64,000 nucleotides of DNA from an uncultured Bacteroidales bacterium (GTDB lineage Bacteria > Bacteroidota > Bacteroidia > Bacteroidales > G3-4614), in the NCBI GenBank assembly GCA_949297125.1, contig CASFRS010000019.1, positions 1-64,000 of the forward strand, read 5' to 3'. A program made the position numbers and the translations under genes. This document shows, piece after piece, positions 2,783 to 37,073 of the stretch. Position 1 is the stretch's first letter; each line of letters starts with the position of its first letter. The notes under the pieces are model-generated. The model worked only from the letters and a program-made list of their open reading frames with translations. It searched no databases and was not told the origin of the DNA.

Positions 2783-4712
2783 ATTGTTTCCTGTATCTGT
2801 TCAGTGCTTTTAGCAGAAACTCGAAGTATTCCGCCGCATTGTCGTTGTAGCCCATTGCCCCTGAAACAGGTTCGCCGTAGGGCGAAAGTATTATCTGGTA
2901 GGGGCTTGCGCTGCTCCCGAACCTTTCCTGTTGCAGCGCCGACCATAACTCGCCGTATGTGTTTACGCGCGTAACCTTCCCGTTTATGCTTACCGGCAGG
3001 CTTTGCGGCAGAACCTCCTTGCTGTCGGTCTTCAGTGCTATTATTGCAAATTCGTTGTTGAGTATTGTCTTTATGGGGGTGAAGTTCCACAGCATCGATT
3101 CCATTACGCGGCTTTCGGCATCGCCTACCGTGGAGAATGTCAGGAGCACGGGGCGTTTCTGCTCGTATGCGTACGACATTCCCCTGTTGTAGTCGTTGAA
3201 CAGGTTGTCCTTGTAGTCGTCGTACAGCGAAAATTCCTGGGTATGCGACGGCGGGATGATAAGGTTTATCATGCTTAGCGGCGCACCCCACAGCCCGGGT
3301 ATCATGTACAGGCAGAAACTGAACGACATTATGGCGGCAATAAGCCGTTTTACCGTTATTTTGGGCGCGGAATCCTTGTCGCGGAGAAACCCGAACGCGC
3401 CGAGCAGGTATACGCCGAGTGCGGCATATATGCTTATCCATATTGCTATGAATATGTCGCGCCCCATTATGTTGTAGCCGTACGACAGGTTTATGTCCGA
3501 AAGGAACGTCAGCGAGTAGGAGAGGATGAAAAATCCTGCTATGCGGTTGAGCGTCGTCAGGCGGGCCTTCGATTCGAGCGTTGCCGTATTCCAGTTGCTG
3601 ACAAGCCCTATTGCCGTGGTTGCGGTAAGGAATGCGGCTATGAACCCGAAGAAGAGGATGAGCGGGCCTGTTATGGGGTCGAACGCTACGCTCTCTTTAA
3701 GGGTCTGCCCTATAAAGCGTCCCGTACAGGAGAATGCGAGTATCAGCACTATCGCCCCGAGTATCAGCAGTTGCAGGAAAGAGGGGGTGTTATCGGGCAG
3801 CCGTATCCCCTTCACCCCGAAAAAATATGCCGCGAGCCCTATGAACAGCACGAACATGGCAATGTTGAAGTAGATGTTCCCGGTAATATCCGTGAAAAAT
3901 CCGTATCCGAAAAGCTGCGTTATAAGCAATCCGGCAAACGGGAAAAGTATTATAAGGGTGAGGTCGTACGACAGTATGTTCACAAGCAGCAGCCTGCGCG
4001 AACTCCTTACTTTGCGGAAACTGTATATCGTCATCAGTATTATCGGCCACAGGCTGGGAAAACAGAGGGCAAGCAGCCCGTTGCTGAACCCCCTGTTGAG
4101 AAGTTCTGTCCCGGTTACCGTTTTCGGCTGCTCGTCTTCGCCGATCTGCCGTATTATGTCTTTTGCCGAGTTCCAGCGTATTACCTCCTCGGGTTCCTGT
4201 ACGGTTGTGTTCCTTGAGTTTTCCGTTGCAGGGGTGTATGCCTTTTCGCCCGGTTTGGCCTCGCCCGGGAGGTTTATGTTGAACCTGTGCCGGGTAGGGG
4301 GCGTGCAGGTCCTGCCGTTGGAGGCCTGGTATATTATGTAGCCCGATATGTTTATGGGGTACGATACGGTCTTTACGGGCAGCGTAAGCACGGCCTTGCG
4401 GCTGTAGCTTTTCATAACCAGTTCAAACAGCGTGTCGTAACTCTCCCTGTACGGCGTGGTTTCATGCAGCGGGCCGTCTATCTTCGCCCCGGTGCATTTC
4501 TCTACCACAACCCTTGTGGGGCGAGGTCCGCCATCCGGGAGCTGCAACCCGTAGACTACCCACCCCTCCGCTATATCGGCCGTGAATACCAGTTCGGCCG
4601 TGTTGCCGCCCTGTTCCGCGAAACTTACGCTCCACGATACGGACTGGGCGCACGGCAACCATACGTTGAGCCATGCTGCAAGGGCTGTTATTATTGTCAG
4701 GTATTTGTTCAT
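2766..4712 (-). CDS. DsbD-like membrane protein with degenerate redox cysteines
   Basis: The 648-residue protein has the three-part order of thiol:disulfide interchange protein DsbD: a signal peptide and periplasmic beta domain (about 22-150), a multi-helix membrane domain (about 205-490) and a C-terminal thioredoxin-like domain (about 510-648). The membrane cysteines are kept, C217 in LALCFP and C329 in FSCTG. The thioredoxin CxxC is gone: the expected position reads VGDAESRVME, with Asp531 and Ser534. In the N-terminal domain the usual first cysteine is Ser131 (ASNGRTC) and only C136 remains. Start chosen at 4712 because the signal peptide follows and a TATCTTTG -7 box lies about 100 bases upstream. 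Electron transfer to the periplasm by the normal relay looks impossible. Confidence 0.8.
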   Translation of the reverse strand: MNKYLTIITALAAWLNVWLPCAQSVSWSVSFAEQGGNTAELVFTADIAEGWVVYGLQLPDGGPRPTRVVVEKCTGAKIDGPLHETTPYRESYDTLFELVMKSYSRKAVLTLPVKTVSYPINISGYIIYQASNGRTCTPPTRHRFNINLPGEAKPGEKAYTPATENSRNTTVQEPEEVIRWNSAKDIIRQIGEDEQPKTVTGTELLNRGFSNGLLALCFPSLWPIILMTIYSFRKVRSSRRLLLVNILSYDLTLIILFPFAGLLITQLFGYGFFTDITGNIYFNIAMFVLFIGLAAYFFGVKGIRLPDNTPSFLQLLILGAIVLILAFSCTGRFIGQTLKESVAFDPITGPLILFFGFIAAFLTATTAIGLVSNWNTATLESKARLTTLNRIAGFFILSYSLTFLSDINLSYGYNIMGRDIFIAIWISIYAALGVYLLGAFGFLRDKDSAPKITVKRLIAAIMSFSFCLYMIPGLWGAPLSMINLIIPPSHTQEFSLYDDYKDNLFNDYNRGMSYAYEQKRPVLLTFSTVGDAESRVMESMLWNFTPIKTILNNEFAIIALKTDSKEVLPQSLPVSINGKVTRVNTYGELWSALQQERFGSSASPYQIILSPYGEPVSGAMGYNDNAAEYFEFLLKALNRYRKQYDGTE

Positions 4713-5065
4713 GGTCCTTCTTCTCTTCCGCCCCTTGAACCTCCCCGTTTCAGGGTAAGGGCCCGCAGGGTCGGGATGGCCGGCAATACGTGCCGCATAT
4801 TTTCGCTGCTTTGCAGCAAAGATAGCATTTATATGCCAACACGCGTACATGCGGGCAGGTTAAAAAATGCAGCAGTCGCCGTTTGTGGCCGCAATGCGGC
4901 TTTTAAGGGAAAGAATACCGCTTTTTACGTATTGCGGTTTTGTCCCGGACGGCATCGGCGGGCGGAGTGTTATTATGTGTTTCATTTTTCACCGTTAAGG
5001 AAAATTGTTGTAACTTCGCCGCACGCGGCGGCGGGTTGCCGTTGCAGGTTTTTTTCGGTAGGGTT
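4713..5065. promoter_or_regulatory. Divergent promoter region between the dsbD-like and nrnA genes
   Basis: On the minus strand a -7 box TATCTTTG (4817-4824) points toward the dsbD-like gene. On the plus strand TTTC (4987-4990), a 20-base spacer and TAACTTCG (5011-5018) form a near-consensus Bacteroidetes promoter for the DHH gene. No gene is visible in the 353 bases. Confidence 0.5.
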
Positions 5066-6094
5066 ATGTCGGAGACTGTTATGGCTGCCGCCGAGGCGGA
5101 GCGTTTGAAAGAGATTCTGTCCGGTTGCCGTTGCGCGGTTGCCGTTGCGCATGTGGCTCCCGACGGCGATGCGGTAGGTTCTACGCTCGCTTTGCAGGGT
5201 GTGTTGTCGGGTATGGGTAAAGAGGCTTATGTAATGCTCCCCGATTCGATACCGGCCACCCTTGCCTTCCTTGAAGGGTCGGAACGGATTCTTGTCTATT
5301 CAGAGAACCGCGCGGAGTGCGATGCGCTGCTCGGCCGGGCCGACCTTGTAGCCTGTCTCGATTTCAATGAGAGCAAGCGCGTGGATATGATGCAGGAGGC
5401 CTTGCTGGCTTCGCCTGCGCGCAAGATAATGATTGACCATCACCTTTATCCGCAACCTTTCTGCGAGTTGACGGTTTCGCGTCCCGAGGTCTCGTCCACA
5501 TCCCTGCTTCTGTACGGGGTCCTGAACCGGATTGGGTGGCGCGACAGGATAGACAGGCGTGTGGCTTCGGCCATATATACGGGCATGATGACCGATACCG
5601 GGAATTTTTCCTATAATTCCAACGACCCGGCCATATATGCGGCAATATCCGACCTGTTGTCGGAGGGGATAGACAAGGACTATATATATACGAAGGCCTG
5701 CAATACTTTCTCGGCCGACAGGCTGAGGCTGTGCGCCTATGCCATATATGAAAAAATGGAACTGTTGCCCGGCGGGGCGGCCCTTATATCGCTTTCGCGC
5801 AGCGAACTCAACGCATACCGCTATGTAAAGGGCGATACGGAAGGGCTGGTAAACGAACCCCTTTCGATAGAGGGGGTCCGGGTGTCGGCTTTCCTGCGCG
5901 AGGAGAAGGGTATGGTAAAGGTGTCGCTGCGGTCAAAGGGCGATTTTGCCGTGAATGTAATCGCTTCGGAGCATTTCGGCGGCGGCGGGCACAGGAATGC
6001 CGCAGGGGGCGAGTTTTACGGTTCGCTGCAGGAGGCCTGCAACAGGTTCCGGGAGGTCATACCCGGATATCTCGATGCCGCTGCCTCACGGTAA
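5066..6094 (+). CDS. nrnA: DHH/DHHA1 phosphoesterase, NrnA-like (oligoribonuclease / pAp phosphatase)
   Basis: Motifs of the DHH superfamily are in order: AHVAPDGDAVGS near residue 30 (motif I), LDFNESKRVD (motif II), MIDHHLYP (the DHH motif) and MMTDTGNFSYNS (motif IV), then a C-terminal DHHA1 domain ending in GGGGHRNAAGG. NrnA-type enzymes degrade 2-5 nt RNAs and dephosphorylate 3'-phosphoadenosine 5'-phosphate. The 342-residue length fits. The start at 5066 is preferred because a promoter -7 box ends at 5018; the frame is open further upstream. An ATG at 5081 is an alternative. Confidence 0.9.
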   Translation: MSETVMAAAEAERLKEILSGCRCAVAVAHVAPDGDAVGSTLALQGVLSGMGKEAYVMLPDSIPATLAFLEGSERILVYSENRAECDALLGRADLVACLDFNESKRVDMMQEALLASPARKIMIDHHLYPQPFCELTVSRPEVSSTSLLLYGVLNRIGWRDRIDRRVASAIYTGMMTDTGNFSYNSNDPAIYAAISDLLSEGIDKDYIYTKACNTFSADRLRLCAYAIYEKMELLPGGAALISLSRSELNAYRYVKGDTEGLVNEPLSIEGVRVSAFLREEKGMVKVSLRSKGDFAVNVIASEHFGGGGHRNAAGGEFYGSLQEACNRFREVIPGYLDAAASR

Positions 6095-34592: not shown

Positions 34593-36449
34593 TCAGTCTG
34601 TTTTTATAATGCGGAATTGCCGCACTTTTATCCAGGAATCCTGTTGGGCCGATGTAACTGTCAGTTCGTAATTCCCGGCATCCAGATAGAGTTTTCCCAT
34701 ATCCTGCCATTCATATGTGGCATGTCCGCCGGGGGTAACGCTGTTGTTGCCGGTCAGGGTGAAGGTTTTTGCACTGCCTGAAACCTTGTTGAACTGGAAC
34801 GTAACCGTACCGTTGAAAAATGCAGCCAGTTCCGAACTGATCTCATATTCCCCGTCATTGGGAACCGTAAGCCTGAATTTTATAGCCCTTCCGCTGTACC
34901 AGCAAAGGGCGGGTTTCTCTTCCCATTCATTTATCAGGTAGGAGCCTGTGGTTTTTGCGGCCAGGGCGTCCAGATAAAGCGTCCCGTTTATAAAGCGAGC
35001 CCCTTCATCCAGTACCGGTTCGGCCAAAAACGAAATCTTCAACGTGCTGCACATTTTATGCGGTGCAGTCTGCGGCAGTCCGGTTATCCTCAAACCTATT
35101 CCGGATATGCTTTCAACCGCAGGCTTGATATTCGGGGCCGAAGGAAAAGAAACTTCAACCTCGTTCTCCTGATTCATAATGCCCGGAATCCACAGTTCTC
35201 CGTTTTTGTCCCAGTAGAATATATGATAGTACATATTTTGTCTGCCATTTAATTTGCGGAAAGTGGTAGGACCGTACGGCAGGTTGTAGCTGAACGGGCT
35301 TTTCACGGTCCCGTGTGCCGATTCGTCATTGTATTTCATCCACCCGGCCAGATCTTCCAGAACCTCAACTGTCTCGGCCGGAATGCTTCCGTCTCCCTTG
35401 GGCCCGACATTAAGCAGCAGATTGCACCCGAGTTTCTGGGCTTTCAGCAATGTGTACAATACATAGGGCGATTCTTTCCAGTCCAAATCGAACTTGCTGT
35501 ATCCCCATGTCCCGTTTAAGGTCATGCAGAGTTCGGAGTTCTCTTTTACAAGTTCTTCGTTTATCGTCTGTTCGGGAGTTTCAAAGTCGCCTCCGTACCC
35601 TATCCCCGGGGCCAGCCTGTCGTTCTGTATTATATTGTATCCCTGTGAGCGGATTATTTCGTCGCAACGACGTGCAAACTCCGCATTGTTGTTGTTCGGG
35701 CCGTCCCACCAGAAAATATCGGGCTTATAATTCTCCAGCAGTTCCGTAATCATGGGATATGTGTAGTTCTTCATATACGCTTCCTGCTGTTCAAGGGTAT
35801 AGCTGCCCCCTTCAACCATTTCGGCAACAGGCTCGGGCGCTCCTTCGAGCATCCAGTCGCGGAACTGCGAAAAATAAATCCCGAATCTCAGTCCTGCGGC
35901 GCGTGCCGCATTTGCAACCGGCATTATAAGGTCGTTGTTCCACCTGCTTCCGGCTGGCGATTTTGTGATGTTCCAGTCGGATGCGCTGCTGTTCCATAGG
36001 CAGAAACTGTCGTGATGCTTGCTTGTAAGGACAACATACCGCATACCTGCATTTTTTGCAAGAGATACTATATATTGCGGGTCGAAGTTGTTTGCCATGA
36101 ATTCCGTAGCAAACTCCTTGTATGTCTCTTTAGGAATCAGGGCCTCTTTCATAATCCACTCCGCACCGGCACCCGCACCTTTTTTTGTGGCATCGGGGGT
36201 ATTGGTTTGCGAGAGAGTTTCAAAATGTTCATAATTCCCGTATATGTCGTTCCCTATATATTCACCCCCAAGTACGGAATATATGCCGTAGTGTATGAAT
36301 AAGCCGAAGCGCGCCTCTTGCCACCAGTCGCTGTCGCTTTGTGTCGTGTTGTTACCTTCGGGGGAAGAAGGATTGGTAGAAAGTTCGTCATCCTTGCATG
36401 AGTACAGACACAGGAATGACAGCAAAATAAGATAAAGTTTTGATTTCAT
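34593..36449 (-). CDS. Alpha-L-fucosidase, glycoside hydrolase family 29, lipoprotein
   Basis: A lipobox (LCLYSC, Cys18) anchors the 618-residue protein to a membrane. The GH29 barrel spans about 40-400: RFGLFIHYGIYSVLGGEY, YVVLTSKHHDSFCLW, LRFGIYFSQFRDW, then DIFWWDGP with the nucleophile Asp, and LLLNVGPKGDGSIP. A C-terminal beta-sandwich (about 490-618) with VPNDGEYEISSELAAFF and LDAGNYELTV looks like a carbohydrate-binding module. It releases fucose from host or plant glycans. No SusC/SusD pair is nearby, so it is not a full utilisation locus. The upstream leader is unusual. Confidence 0.92.
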   Translation of the reverse strand: MKSKLYLILLSFLCLYSCKDDELSTNPSSPEGNNTTQSDSDWWQEARFGLFIHYGIYSVLGGEYIGNDIYGNYEHFETLSQTNTPDATKKGAGAGAEWIMKEALIPKETYKEFATEFMANNFDPQYIVSLAKNAGMRYVVLTSKHHDSFCLWNSSASDWNITKSPAGSRWNNDLIMPVANAARAAGLRFGIYFSQFRDWMLEGAPEPVAEMVEGGSYTLEQQEAYMKNYTYPMITELLENYKPDIFWWDGPNNNNAEFARRCDEIIRSQGYNIIQNDRLAPGIGYGGDFETPEQTINEELVKENSELCMTLNGTWGYSKFDLDWKESPYVLYTLLKAQKLGCNLLLNVGPKGDGSIPAETVEVLEDLAGWMKYNDESAHGTVKSPFSYNLPYGPTTFRKLNGRQNMYYHIFYWDKNGELWIPGIMNQENEVEVSFPSAPNIKPAVESISGIGLRITGLPQTAPHKMCSTLKISFLAEPVLDEGARFINGTLYLDALAAKTTGSYLINEWEEKPALCWYSGRAIKFRLTVPNDGEYEISSELAAFFNGTVTFQFNKVSGSAKTFTLTGNNSVTPGGHATYEWQDMGKLYLDAGNYELTVTSAQQDSWIKVRQFRIIKTD

Positions 36450-36690
36450 GTTGGCGATTTTAACGATCCTTATATGCGGCTAATAAGGATATAAAAAAAA
36501 CGGTGGCCGCATTCTGTGCACACTCGTTAGGTATCGCCAAACACCTGTATATACACACAGAATACAGCTCACCGTAAGCGAGCTGATCCTGTGCCTTGTA
36601 TATACCCTTGATAATTTGGCGATTTCAACGAGTGTAAGGCACACTCCCATTATTATGTCCTGTCTCCGAGAGACTCTGCAAATATACGCA
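36450..36690 (-). promoter_or_regulatory. Structured leader of the fucosidase gene with three related 16-17 base segments
   Basis: A minus-strand -7 box TATATTTG lies at 36686-36679. The leader of about 220 bases contains segment A (36631-36616), its complement B (36540-36524) and C (36466-36451), which has the same sense as A and ends one base before the start codon. B can pair with A (a long hairpin extended by GUAUAUAC pairs) or with C, so pairing is mutually exclusive. A 56-codon open frame (36650-36480, starting MGVCLTLVEIAKL) runs through A and B and stops 30 bases before the gene. A T8 run follows B. The layout suggests translational or transcriptional switching; an alternative is an inserted inverted-repeat element. 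Confidence 0.5.
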
Positions 36691-37000
36691 AAATCAGTAA
36701 ACAAACGTGTAAATAAGGTGCGTTTTTTGGAAGGAGAGTATTTTGCGTTTGCAGCAGGTGTTCAATGTAGAGGTTCGTACGGTTTCAAATACGCCCGGAA
36801 TTCGGGCGATACTCCTGCGGGTTGATATATTCACGATTGCGGATAGTATATCCGGAATATGGCGGTTTCGGCTGAAATTGCAAGGCCGTATGGGAAATGT
36901 AACGAATAAGTTTGACTGAACCGGGAAAGAAGGTCTTGCGTCCGCCCGTGCCGTTGTTCCCGGCCAGTGCGCAGGCGCGGCTTGCGTATAGTTGCAGAAC
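36691..37000. other. Gene-free spacer between the fucosidase promoter and yebC
   Basis: No gene is visible in these 310 bases. Confidence 0.4.
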
Positions 37001-37032
37001 GGCCACAGACGGGGATTCGCCCGTTTGTGGCC
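37001..37032 (-). terminator. Hairpin after yebC
   Basis: A stem of 13 positions with one G-T pair (37001-37013 with 37020-37032) lies about 40 bases beyond the yebC stop. There is no T-run. Confidence 0.45.
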
Positions 37033-37073
37033 GCAGGTATTATAATAGCTTTGTTTTGAGGGGTGTGTGCGTA

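Follow-up and report, generated by a model that had tools for sequence, protein, structure and literature searches.

The window, a 64,000-nucleotide stretch of DNA from an uncultured Bacteroidales bacterium, carries on its minus strand a gene for a GH29 alpha-L-fucosidase (the G001 orthologue matches Pfam Alpha_L_fucos at E = 2.9e-73) that is preceded by a leader made up almost entirely of mutually complementary segments (Table 1). Three of these, A, B, and C, were placed by an initial sequence-only reading, with which our coordinates agree to within 1 nt; the A-B helix is composed of ACACUCGUU/AACGAGUGU, AUCGCCAAA/UUUGGCGAU, and GUAUAUAC/GUAUAUAC. That reading also took the leader to be switch-like, with A-B and B-C pairings in competition, a view that the comparison with relatives supports. 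The leader is strongly structured, the minimum free energy (MFE) of its 246 nt being -85.1 kcal/mol, compared to -57.2 +/- 4.6 kcal/mol in 200 dinucleotide shuffles (z = -6.06), none of which was as good as the native sequence (0/200). A second local choice that it described is likewise present in the window, with ATGCGGC (inside x', 36518-36502) and GCCGCAT on one side and the arms ATCCTTAT/ATAAGGAT (36490-36466) on the other. Besides further copies of the leader in the same genome, several features had escaped notice, namely, the p2:m hairpin that encloses A, the terminator-like x:x' pairing followed by eight U, the mini-hairpin that carries B, and the -7 promoter box, given which transcription most likely begins upstream of all the segments.

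Table 1. Segments of the leader and the gene behind it, in 5' to 3' order of the transcript
Feature	Coordinates	Strand	Remarks
-7 promoter box TATATTTG	36679..36686	-	Bacteroidetes TAnnTTTG type; probable start a few nt further on, 5' of p2
p2 (GUGCCUU)	36636..36642	-	partner m, encloses a-A-n; swap test -17.8 own, -11.1 kcal/mol swapped
Segment a + A box (ACACUCGUU ga AAUCGCCAAA)	36615..36635	-	A segment CGTTGAAATCGCCAAA at 36630-36615; a:a' in swap test; box 99%, flank 96% paired, double changes at every pair
n (GUAUAUAC)	36598..36605	-	partner n'; helix 3, 95% paired
m (AAGGCAC)	36591..36597	-	partner p2; GGCACAG (36595-36589) alternatively pairs with m'
t (CAGCUCGC)	36578..36585	-	local partner of x at tip of long hairpin; helix 5 of alignment A5
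x (GGUGAGCUGUAUUCUGUG, includes m')	36556..36573	-	pairs with t + m (long hairpin) or x' (terminator-like hairpin)
n' (GUAUAUAC)	36547..36554	-	partner n
B mini-hairpin AGGUGUU-UGGC-GAUACCU	36529..36546	-	holds B box UUUGGCGAU (TTTGGCGAT, 36541-36533), then ACC; stem pair covaries
a' (AACGAGUGU; AACGAGTGT)	36520..36528	-	partner a; swap test and alignment
x' (CACAGAAUGCGGCCACC, 36518-36502) + U8 (36500-36493)	36493..36518	-	3' arm of terminator-like hairpin and U-run
D hairpin AUCCUUAU-(loop with GCCGCAU)-AUAAGGAU	36466..36490	-	loop (36480-36474) complementary to x'
C (CGTTAAAATCGCCAAC), copy of a-A	36450..36465	-	ends 1 nt before start codon; can pair with B + a'
GH29 alpha-L-fucosidase gene	34593..36449	-	ATG from 36449; N-terminal lipoprotein-like signal; from open reading frame list

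Judged by comparative analysis, this leader is one copy of a large family of structured RNAs in which the order of the segments is promoter - p2 - a - A - n - m - t - x(m') - n' - B - a' - x' - U-run - gene. The conserved pairings define two folds per copy. Fold 1 is a single long nested hairpin (aA:Ba', n:n', m:m', and t:x). Fold 2 combines the 5' hairpin p2:m, which encloses a-A-n, with x:x' and its U-run, and presents B on a mini-hairpin of the form GGY-loop-RCC; in the window, it consists of GUGCCUU/AAGGCAC and GGUGAGCUGUAUUCUGUG/CACAGAAUGCGGCCACC-U8, with AGGUGUU-UGGC-GAUACCU on top. The two folds are mutually exclusive in that x pairs either with t and m or with x', and m pairs either with p2 or with m'.

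Covariation indicates that these pairings are conserved, whereas the sequences that form them are not. In the alignment to model R1 (95 distinct members), 93.7% of the cells are paired, compared to 64.5% with shuffled partners and 35-42% with slid partners, and cells with double changes number 952 vs 272; in the alignment to model R2 (94 members with varied boxes), 93.1% are paired vs 59.8%, and double changes occur at all 36 of the 36 pairs, including 8/8 of the A:B box, although kinship among the sequences inflates all such counts and the swap and slide controls are a partial remedy. Examples of covarying A:B boxes are AATCGGCAA/TTGCCGAT (L231), AACCGCGAA/TTCGCGGT (L240), AACTAGCACC/GTGCTAGT (L039) and, in the genome of the window itself, AATCTGGAA/TTCCAGA (L055). 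A constant AUCGCCAA box, which had been entertained as a protein target, turned out to be an artefact of the pattern search, given that members found with the models have other, covarying boxes. The stem pair of the B mini-hairpin (Y/R) covaries as well, being U-A in 134 cases, C-G in 29, U-G in 5, and C-A in none.

Because both alignments were fitted to the structure, we added an alignment-free swap test, in which the duplex energy of a segment with its own partner is compared to that with the partners of other members (123 non-redundant members). The own partner was among the best 5% in 100% of the members for a:a' (-10.3 own vs -2.4 kcal/mol swapped), in 85% for n:n' (-11.1 vs -4.6), in 80% for the inner hairpin (-25.8 vs -15.2), in 67% for x:x' (-27.2 vs -16.9), and in 43% for p2:m (-17.8 vs -11.1), compared to 2-7% for three control segment pairs. 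Thus, the constraint extends beyond the obvious hairpin, and both folds are maintained. In folding predictions, full leaders have Fold 1 as their MFE structure in 96% of the members, with a median advantage of 15 kcal/mol over Fold 2. Transcripts that end after x contain p2:m in 97% of the MFEs; with a-A-n kept open, p2:m coexists with x:x' in 85% of cases, and the B mini-hairpin is formed in 96%. By these energies, Fold 1 may be essentially permanent in the absence of a trigger, so that Fold 2 would need kinetic control; given this stability, the switch would have to be either kinetic or driven by a factor.

The genomic context is that expected of a leader. In 122 cases, the gene that follows shares its strand, compared to 7 in which it is on the opposite one, and the distance from B is usually 40-125 nt. 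Ahead of the A box, at a distance of 60-109 nt, the 186 members have 104 instances of TAnnTTTG, compared to 16 in the whole of a 150-nt control stretch further up. On the downstream side, a scan of sequence windows detects at least 7 U of 8 after x' in 65% of the members, vs 8% in shuffled sequences and 5% in the next region, a strong U-run being absent from about a third of the members. The family thus combines a terminator-like hairpin and U-run upstream of a gene with a mutually exclusive alternative fold, two hallmarks of an attenuator that works through an intrinsic terminator. Hence, the leader probably decides whether the downstream gene is read, and in most members its main output seems to be the conserved terminator arm. 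A promoter and a terminator-like end about 170 nt apart could also delimit a stand-alone small RNA gene that ends at the x'-U-run, with the gene behind reached by read-through only and B or A acting on other mRNAs in trans. The display of the B box in the loop of the mini-hairpin and the resemblance of the C copies to target sites would fit such a gene, but the constant short distance to a gene on the same strand would not, nor would the presence of C in the same transcript, where it tracks the local flank; furthermore, the boxes vary even inside one genome, hence no shared trans target is evident. We therefore consider an independent small RNA distinctly improbable and favor action in cis.

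What the leader controls is far less uniform than the leader itself. Among 130 downstream proteins scanned, 51 Pfam families are represented, the biggest group being that of leucine-rich-repeat models (11 proteins with LRR_8 and 10 with BspA-type LRR_5), and, by a crude rule, 86 of 166 downstream proteins have a signal-peptide-like start; genes for secreted proteins, lipoproteins, LRR and HTH proteins, and DNA modification are among those behind the leader. An association with defense genes was considered and rejected, with no dominant defense system found among the downstream genes and type III methylases in only 2 of the 130 proteins. In several loci (L082, L099, L125, L133, L161, L035, L036), small HTH proteins of the pattern IHIGxxI...W.A...C.R...Y.IF.R..ID are encoded directly behind the leader; recurring in several genomes, they are candidates for autoregulation or for a role as partner protein.

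This diversity is hard to reconcile with a specific link to fucosidase or fucose. Only 2 of the 130 proteins are fucosidases, and a leader of this family was not found before a 42%-identical GH29 gene in a congener, so the link to fucosidase is incidental. Neither a fucose switch nor any other metabolite riboswitch fits downstream genes that are unrelated. The position of the leader and its terminator architecture are those of a riboswitch, but the downstream genes have no pathway in common, the congener GH29 gene lacks the leader, the members tested have zero Rfam matches, and there is no conserved unpaired aptamer core, nearly every position beyond short A-rich linkers belonging to a covarying helix; we deem this explanation very improbable. 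The same verdict applies to the mechanism originally proposed, whereby B would be released to block C through translation of a 56-codon frame that spans A and B, or through a ribosome stalling on A. The frame does exist in the window (start codon ATG at 36650, stop codon at 36480), but just 7 of the 185 members show one that opens with ATG and crosses both segments, and indels in this stretch break it in close relatives such as L028. Leader-peptide attenuation was accordingly rejected, the frame not being conserved, and there is hardly any chance that a ribosome on A sets the switch.

The family is widespread. The A-B-C plan, which the first reading suggested should be sought in relatives, was recovered by BLAST in congeners. 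GH29 is syntenic between two congeners (YebC upstream, MATE downstream); the GH29 leaders align from p2 to the ATG at ~78%, whereas the 430 nt upstream (36643-37073) yield no alignment. A covariance model built from five sequences matches 84 of 393 Bacteroidales genomes, and model R3, trained on diverse members and applied at E <= 1e-4, matches at least 114 of 295 (~39%) and 82 of 183 genera, the genome count being a lower bound obtained with up to 11 candidates scored per genome. A DNA pattern scan of GTDB contigs returned at least 119 exact stretches, of which 80 were kept with names, among them Prevotella, Alistipes, Bacteroides, Phocaeicola, Parabacteroides, Dysgonomonas, Flavobacterium segetis, and Chryseobacterium gregarium, so that the family is present in Flavobacteriia too, as well as metagenome-assembled genomes (MAGs) labelled Ignavibacteria, Lentisphaerae, and Kiritimatiellae. 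In a phylum-wide sample, the narrower model R2 matches 15 of 393 genomes at a strict cut-off, which implies that the distribution outside Bacteroidales is patchy, or else that R2 is too narrow. Several of the members from MAGs that carry the label Lentisphaerae, Kiritimatiellae, Ignavibacteria, or unclassified bacterium (L116, L122, L128, L137, L140, L146, L191) have the 5' arm ACGCAA-TTGCGTA in common and perhaps form a separate sub-type. The element was also detected on 27 IMG/VR contigs (L202-L228); some copies may travel with phages or prophages, and with the pattern on only 27 such contigs, a phage origin of the family was rejected.

Individual loci illustrate how these leaders are deployed. 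The genome of the window has four copies (C19, which is the window, C6, C15, and C1). The copy on C6 (L025, ~5161-5282, minus strand), identified by BLAST at 71% over 126 nt, precedes a gene for a small membrane protein and has its own TAACTTTG promoter, with no clear C copy found at the start codon; those on C15 (L294, 1939-2071, plus strand) and C1 (L295, 2391-2517, plus strand) have different A:B boxes (ACCGCCAA, TCTGGAA). In L120, promoter and leader are duplicated with high similarity 3 kb apart (1350-1800 and 4480-4800), with different secreted or unknown genes behind them, which suggests that the regulatory unit was duplicated or exchanged along with its cargo. In L119, two same-strand leaders lie 770 nt apart (2475-2599 and 3246-3374), and the second precedes an operon that includes a protein starting with MSKVYVFGIGGTGSRVL, possibly part of a defense or surface island.

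One property of the helices raises the question of whether they act as RNA only. G-U pairs are very few in a:a', A:B (about 0.3%), and n:n', and common in m:m' and t:x (alignment A5); such scarcity is unusual for RNA helices and could reflect a role at the DNA level or on both strands. It would suit a palindromic DNA element, that is, a recombination or mobile site of the attC-like or REP/MITE-like kind, the arms of which are complementary via a single-stranded DNA hairpin substrate or template-switch repair of a quasipalindrome, and the same can be said of the great diversity of the downstream genes, the several copies per genome, and the tandem repeat of promoter and leader before different genes in L120. 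Recurrence at many unrelated sites had indeed been named at the outset as the sign of a mobile element, and many sites there are, but what recurs is a diverged, covarying structure, almost without exception in leader position, rather than a sequence that has been copied. Near-identical copies, by which a simple MITE or REP would be recognized, were not found among the four in the genome of the window, the best two of which share 71% over 126 nt, with different boxes in the others. Moreover, the orientation before genes is consistent (122 vs 7), a promoter lies just upstream and a one-sided U-run downstream of x', a conserved asymmetry persists (RCC on the B side and the GGY/RCC stem), the GH29 leader is syntenic in the congener, and the locus-specific alternatives p2:m and x:x' would be needless in a simple palindrome. 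A purely DNA-level element is, we believe, unlikely, and we return to the RNA leader.

In a subclass of the family, the leader seems to have acquired a second output. A clear C copy is found at the start codon in 13 of ~180 members examined, and its flank fits the member's own a' flank better than those of others (-8.8 own vs -5.4 kcal/mol swapped; -7.4 within a flank type vs -3.9 between types). All three places show a changed variable flank in L029, which reads CCTTGT at A, ACAAGG at B, and CCTTGT at C. Since the C flank covaries with A and B, the masking of the translation start by B-C pairing, an original proposal for the window, gains support across the subclass. A strong U-run is present in 3 of the 13 members with C, compared to 115 of the 167 without C (Fisher p = 0.0015), which suggests that, in this subclass, masking of the start codon by B:C partly took over from termination; the window copy has both devices, the terminator-like arm with its U-run and C. 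Pairing x':x'' as a general rule of the subclass was discarded as too weakly locus-specific (-11.0 vs -9.1): the complementarity between x' and the D loop is not significantly locus-specific in relatives and holds at the level of the window only.

Taken together, these observations make it likely that the leader is a cis-acting RNA switch, an attenuator, belonging to a large Bacteroidota family with two exclusive folds, Fold 1 presumably being ON and Fold 2 OFF. In the scenario that we envisage, p2:m would be the first hairpin to form on the nascent RNA, and contact of the B loop with A would then nucleate Fold 1, which would strip x off x', prevent the terminator, and let RNA polymerase read on. 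Were A unavailable, x:x' would end transcription; Fold 2 could be triggered by occupation of A or B or, alternatively, by a fast or slow polymerase. In the subclass with C, B and a' set free by Fold 2 could base-pair with C and thereby mask the start codon as a second lock, whereas Fold 1 would use up B and leave C open, so that the presumed direction of control is the same for termination and for start-codon masking. The absence of a common downstream function favors a general signal over a metabolite of the controlled pathway, and the candidates include the pace of transcription, an RNA-binding protein, or an RNA that engages A or B. A far-reaching extension, to which we assign a low probability, is that the leader is a gene-independent module of Bacteroidota and neighboring phyla in which a short A/B loop-loop 'address' sets termination versus read-through. 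As this address can change only in matched pairs, copies may be insulated from those with other addresses and cross-regulated by terminated leader RNAs of the same address, so that accessory and surface genes would come under a network made of RNA only.

The finding is thus larger than the initial reading anticipated, a widespread two-state RNA leader family in place of a switch for one gene. Bacteroidota are dominant gut bacteria in which post-transcriptional control is little understood, and a leader family present in ~39% of the sampled Bacteroidales genomes without an Rfam model would represent a major regulatory layer missed by annotation. Its anatomy gives testable predictions, and one subclass appears to swap termination for start-codon masking. 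The family is apparently undescribed and unnamed: we found no description of it in the openly accessible article texts searched. At the gathering score, 16 family loci have zero Rfam matches (riboswitches, T-box, Flavo-1, Bacteroidales-1/6S, etc.); in the window region at E <= 5, there are only implausible weak matches far below gathering scores, five loci at E <= 0.5 yield only eukaryotic miRNA/snoRNA noise outside the element, and the only bacterial match at the element in the weak-threshold scans is an implausible sub-threshold Mycoplasma sRNA.

Among known systems, the closest in logic are transcription attenuators (trp-type, T-box, and riboswitch expression platforms), with which the family shares a hairpin of the nascent RNA, a competing anti-terminator, and an intrinsic-terminator-like hairpin with a U-run before a same-strand gene. 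Unlike these, it has no leader peptide, tRNA specifier, or recognizable aptamer, its sequence is nearly free to change as long as pairing is kept, and it precedes unrelated genes. In the IncI/ColIb repZ pseudoknot and the pT181 attenuators, a short box displayed in a loop pairs with its complement at another place in the leader to control a start codon or a terminator, and box types differ among members. The leaders described here differ from these in being chromosomal, in their topology, and in having neither a rep gene nor a known antisense RNA, with no replication family found among the downstream Pfam families listed. Integron attC sites, which are recognized by the core sites GTTRRRY/RYYYAAC and an integrase, do not feature a promoter, a U-run, or the alternative pairings of the leader family. 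Flavo-1 and other Rfam motifs of Bacteroidetes are structured RNAs of the same phylum, some of them in 5' regions (PMC9723704), but no Rfam model matches family members at the gathering score. Among the candidate structured RNAs of Fremin and Bhatt 2021 (PMC8040213), HMP2_4205, a 132-bp palindromic element of Bacteroidetes, resembles the family in size, host phylum, palindromy, and predicted terminator; its available description is of a single palindromic motif near TPR genes, without a two-state design or a family-wide account. The leader family may overlap the palindromic candidates of that study, and HMP2_4205 could be one of its sub-clusters.
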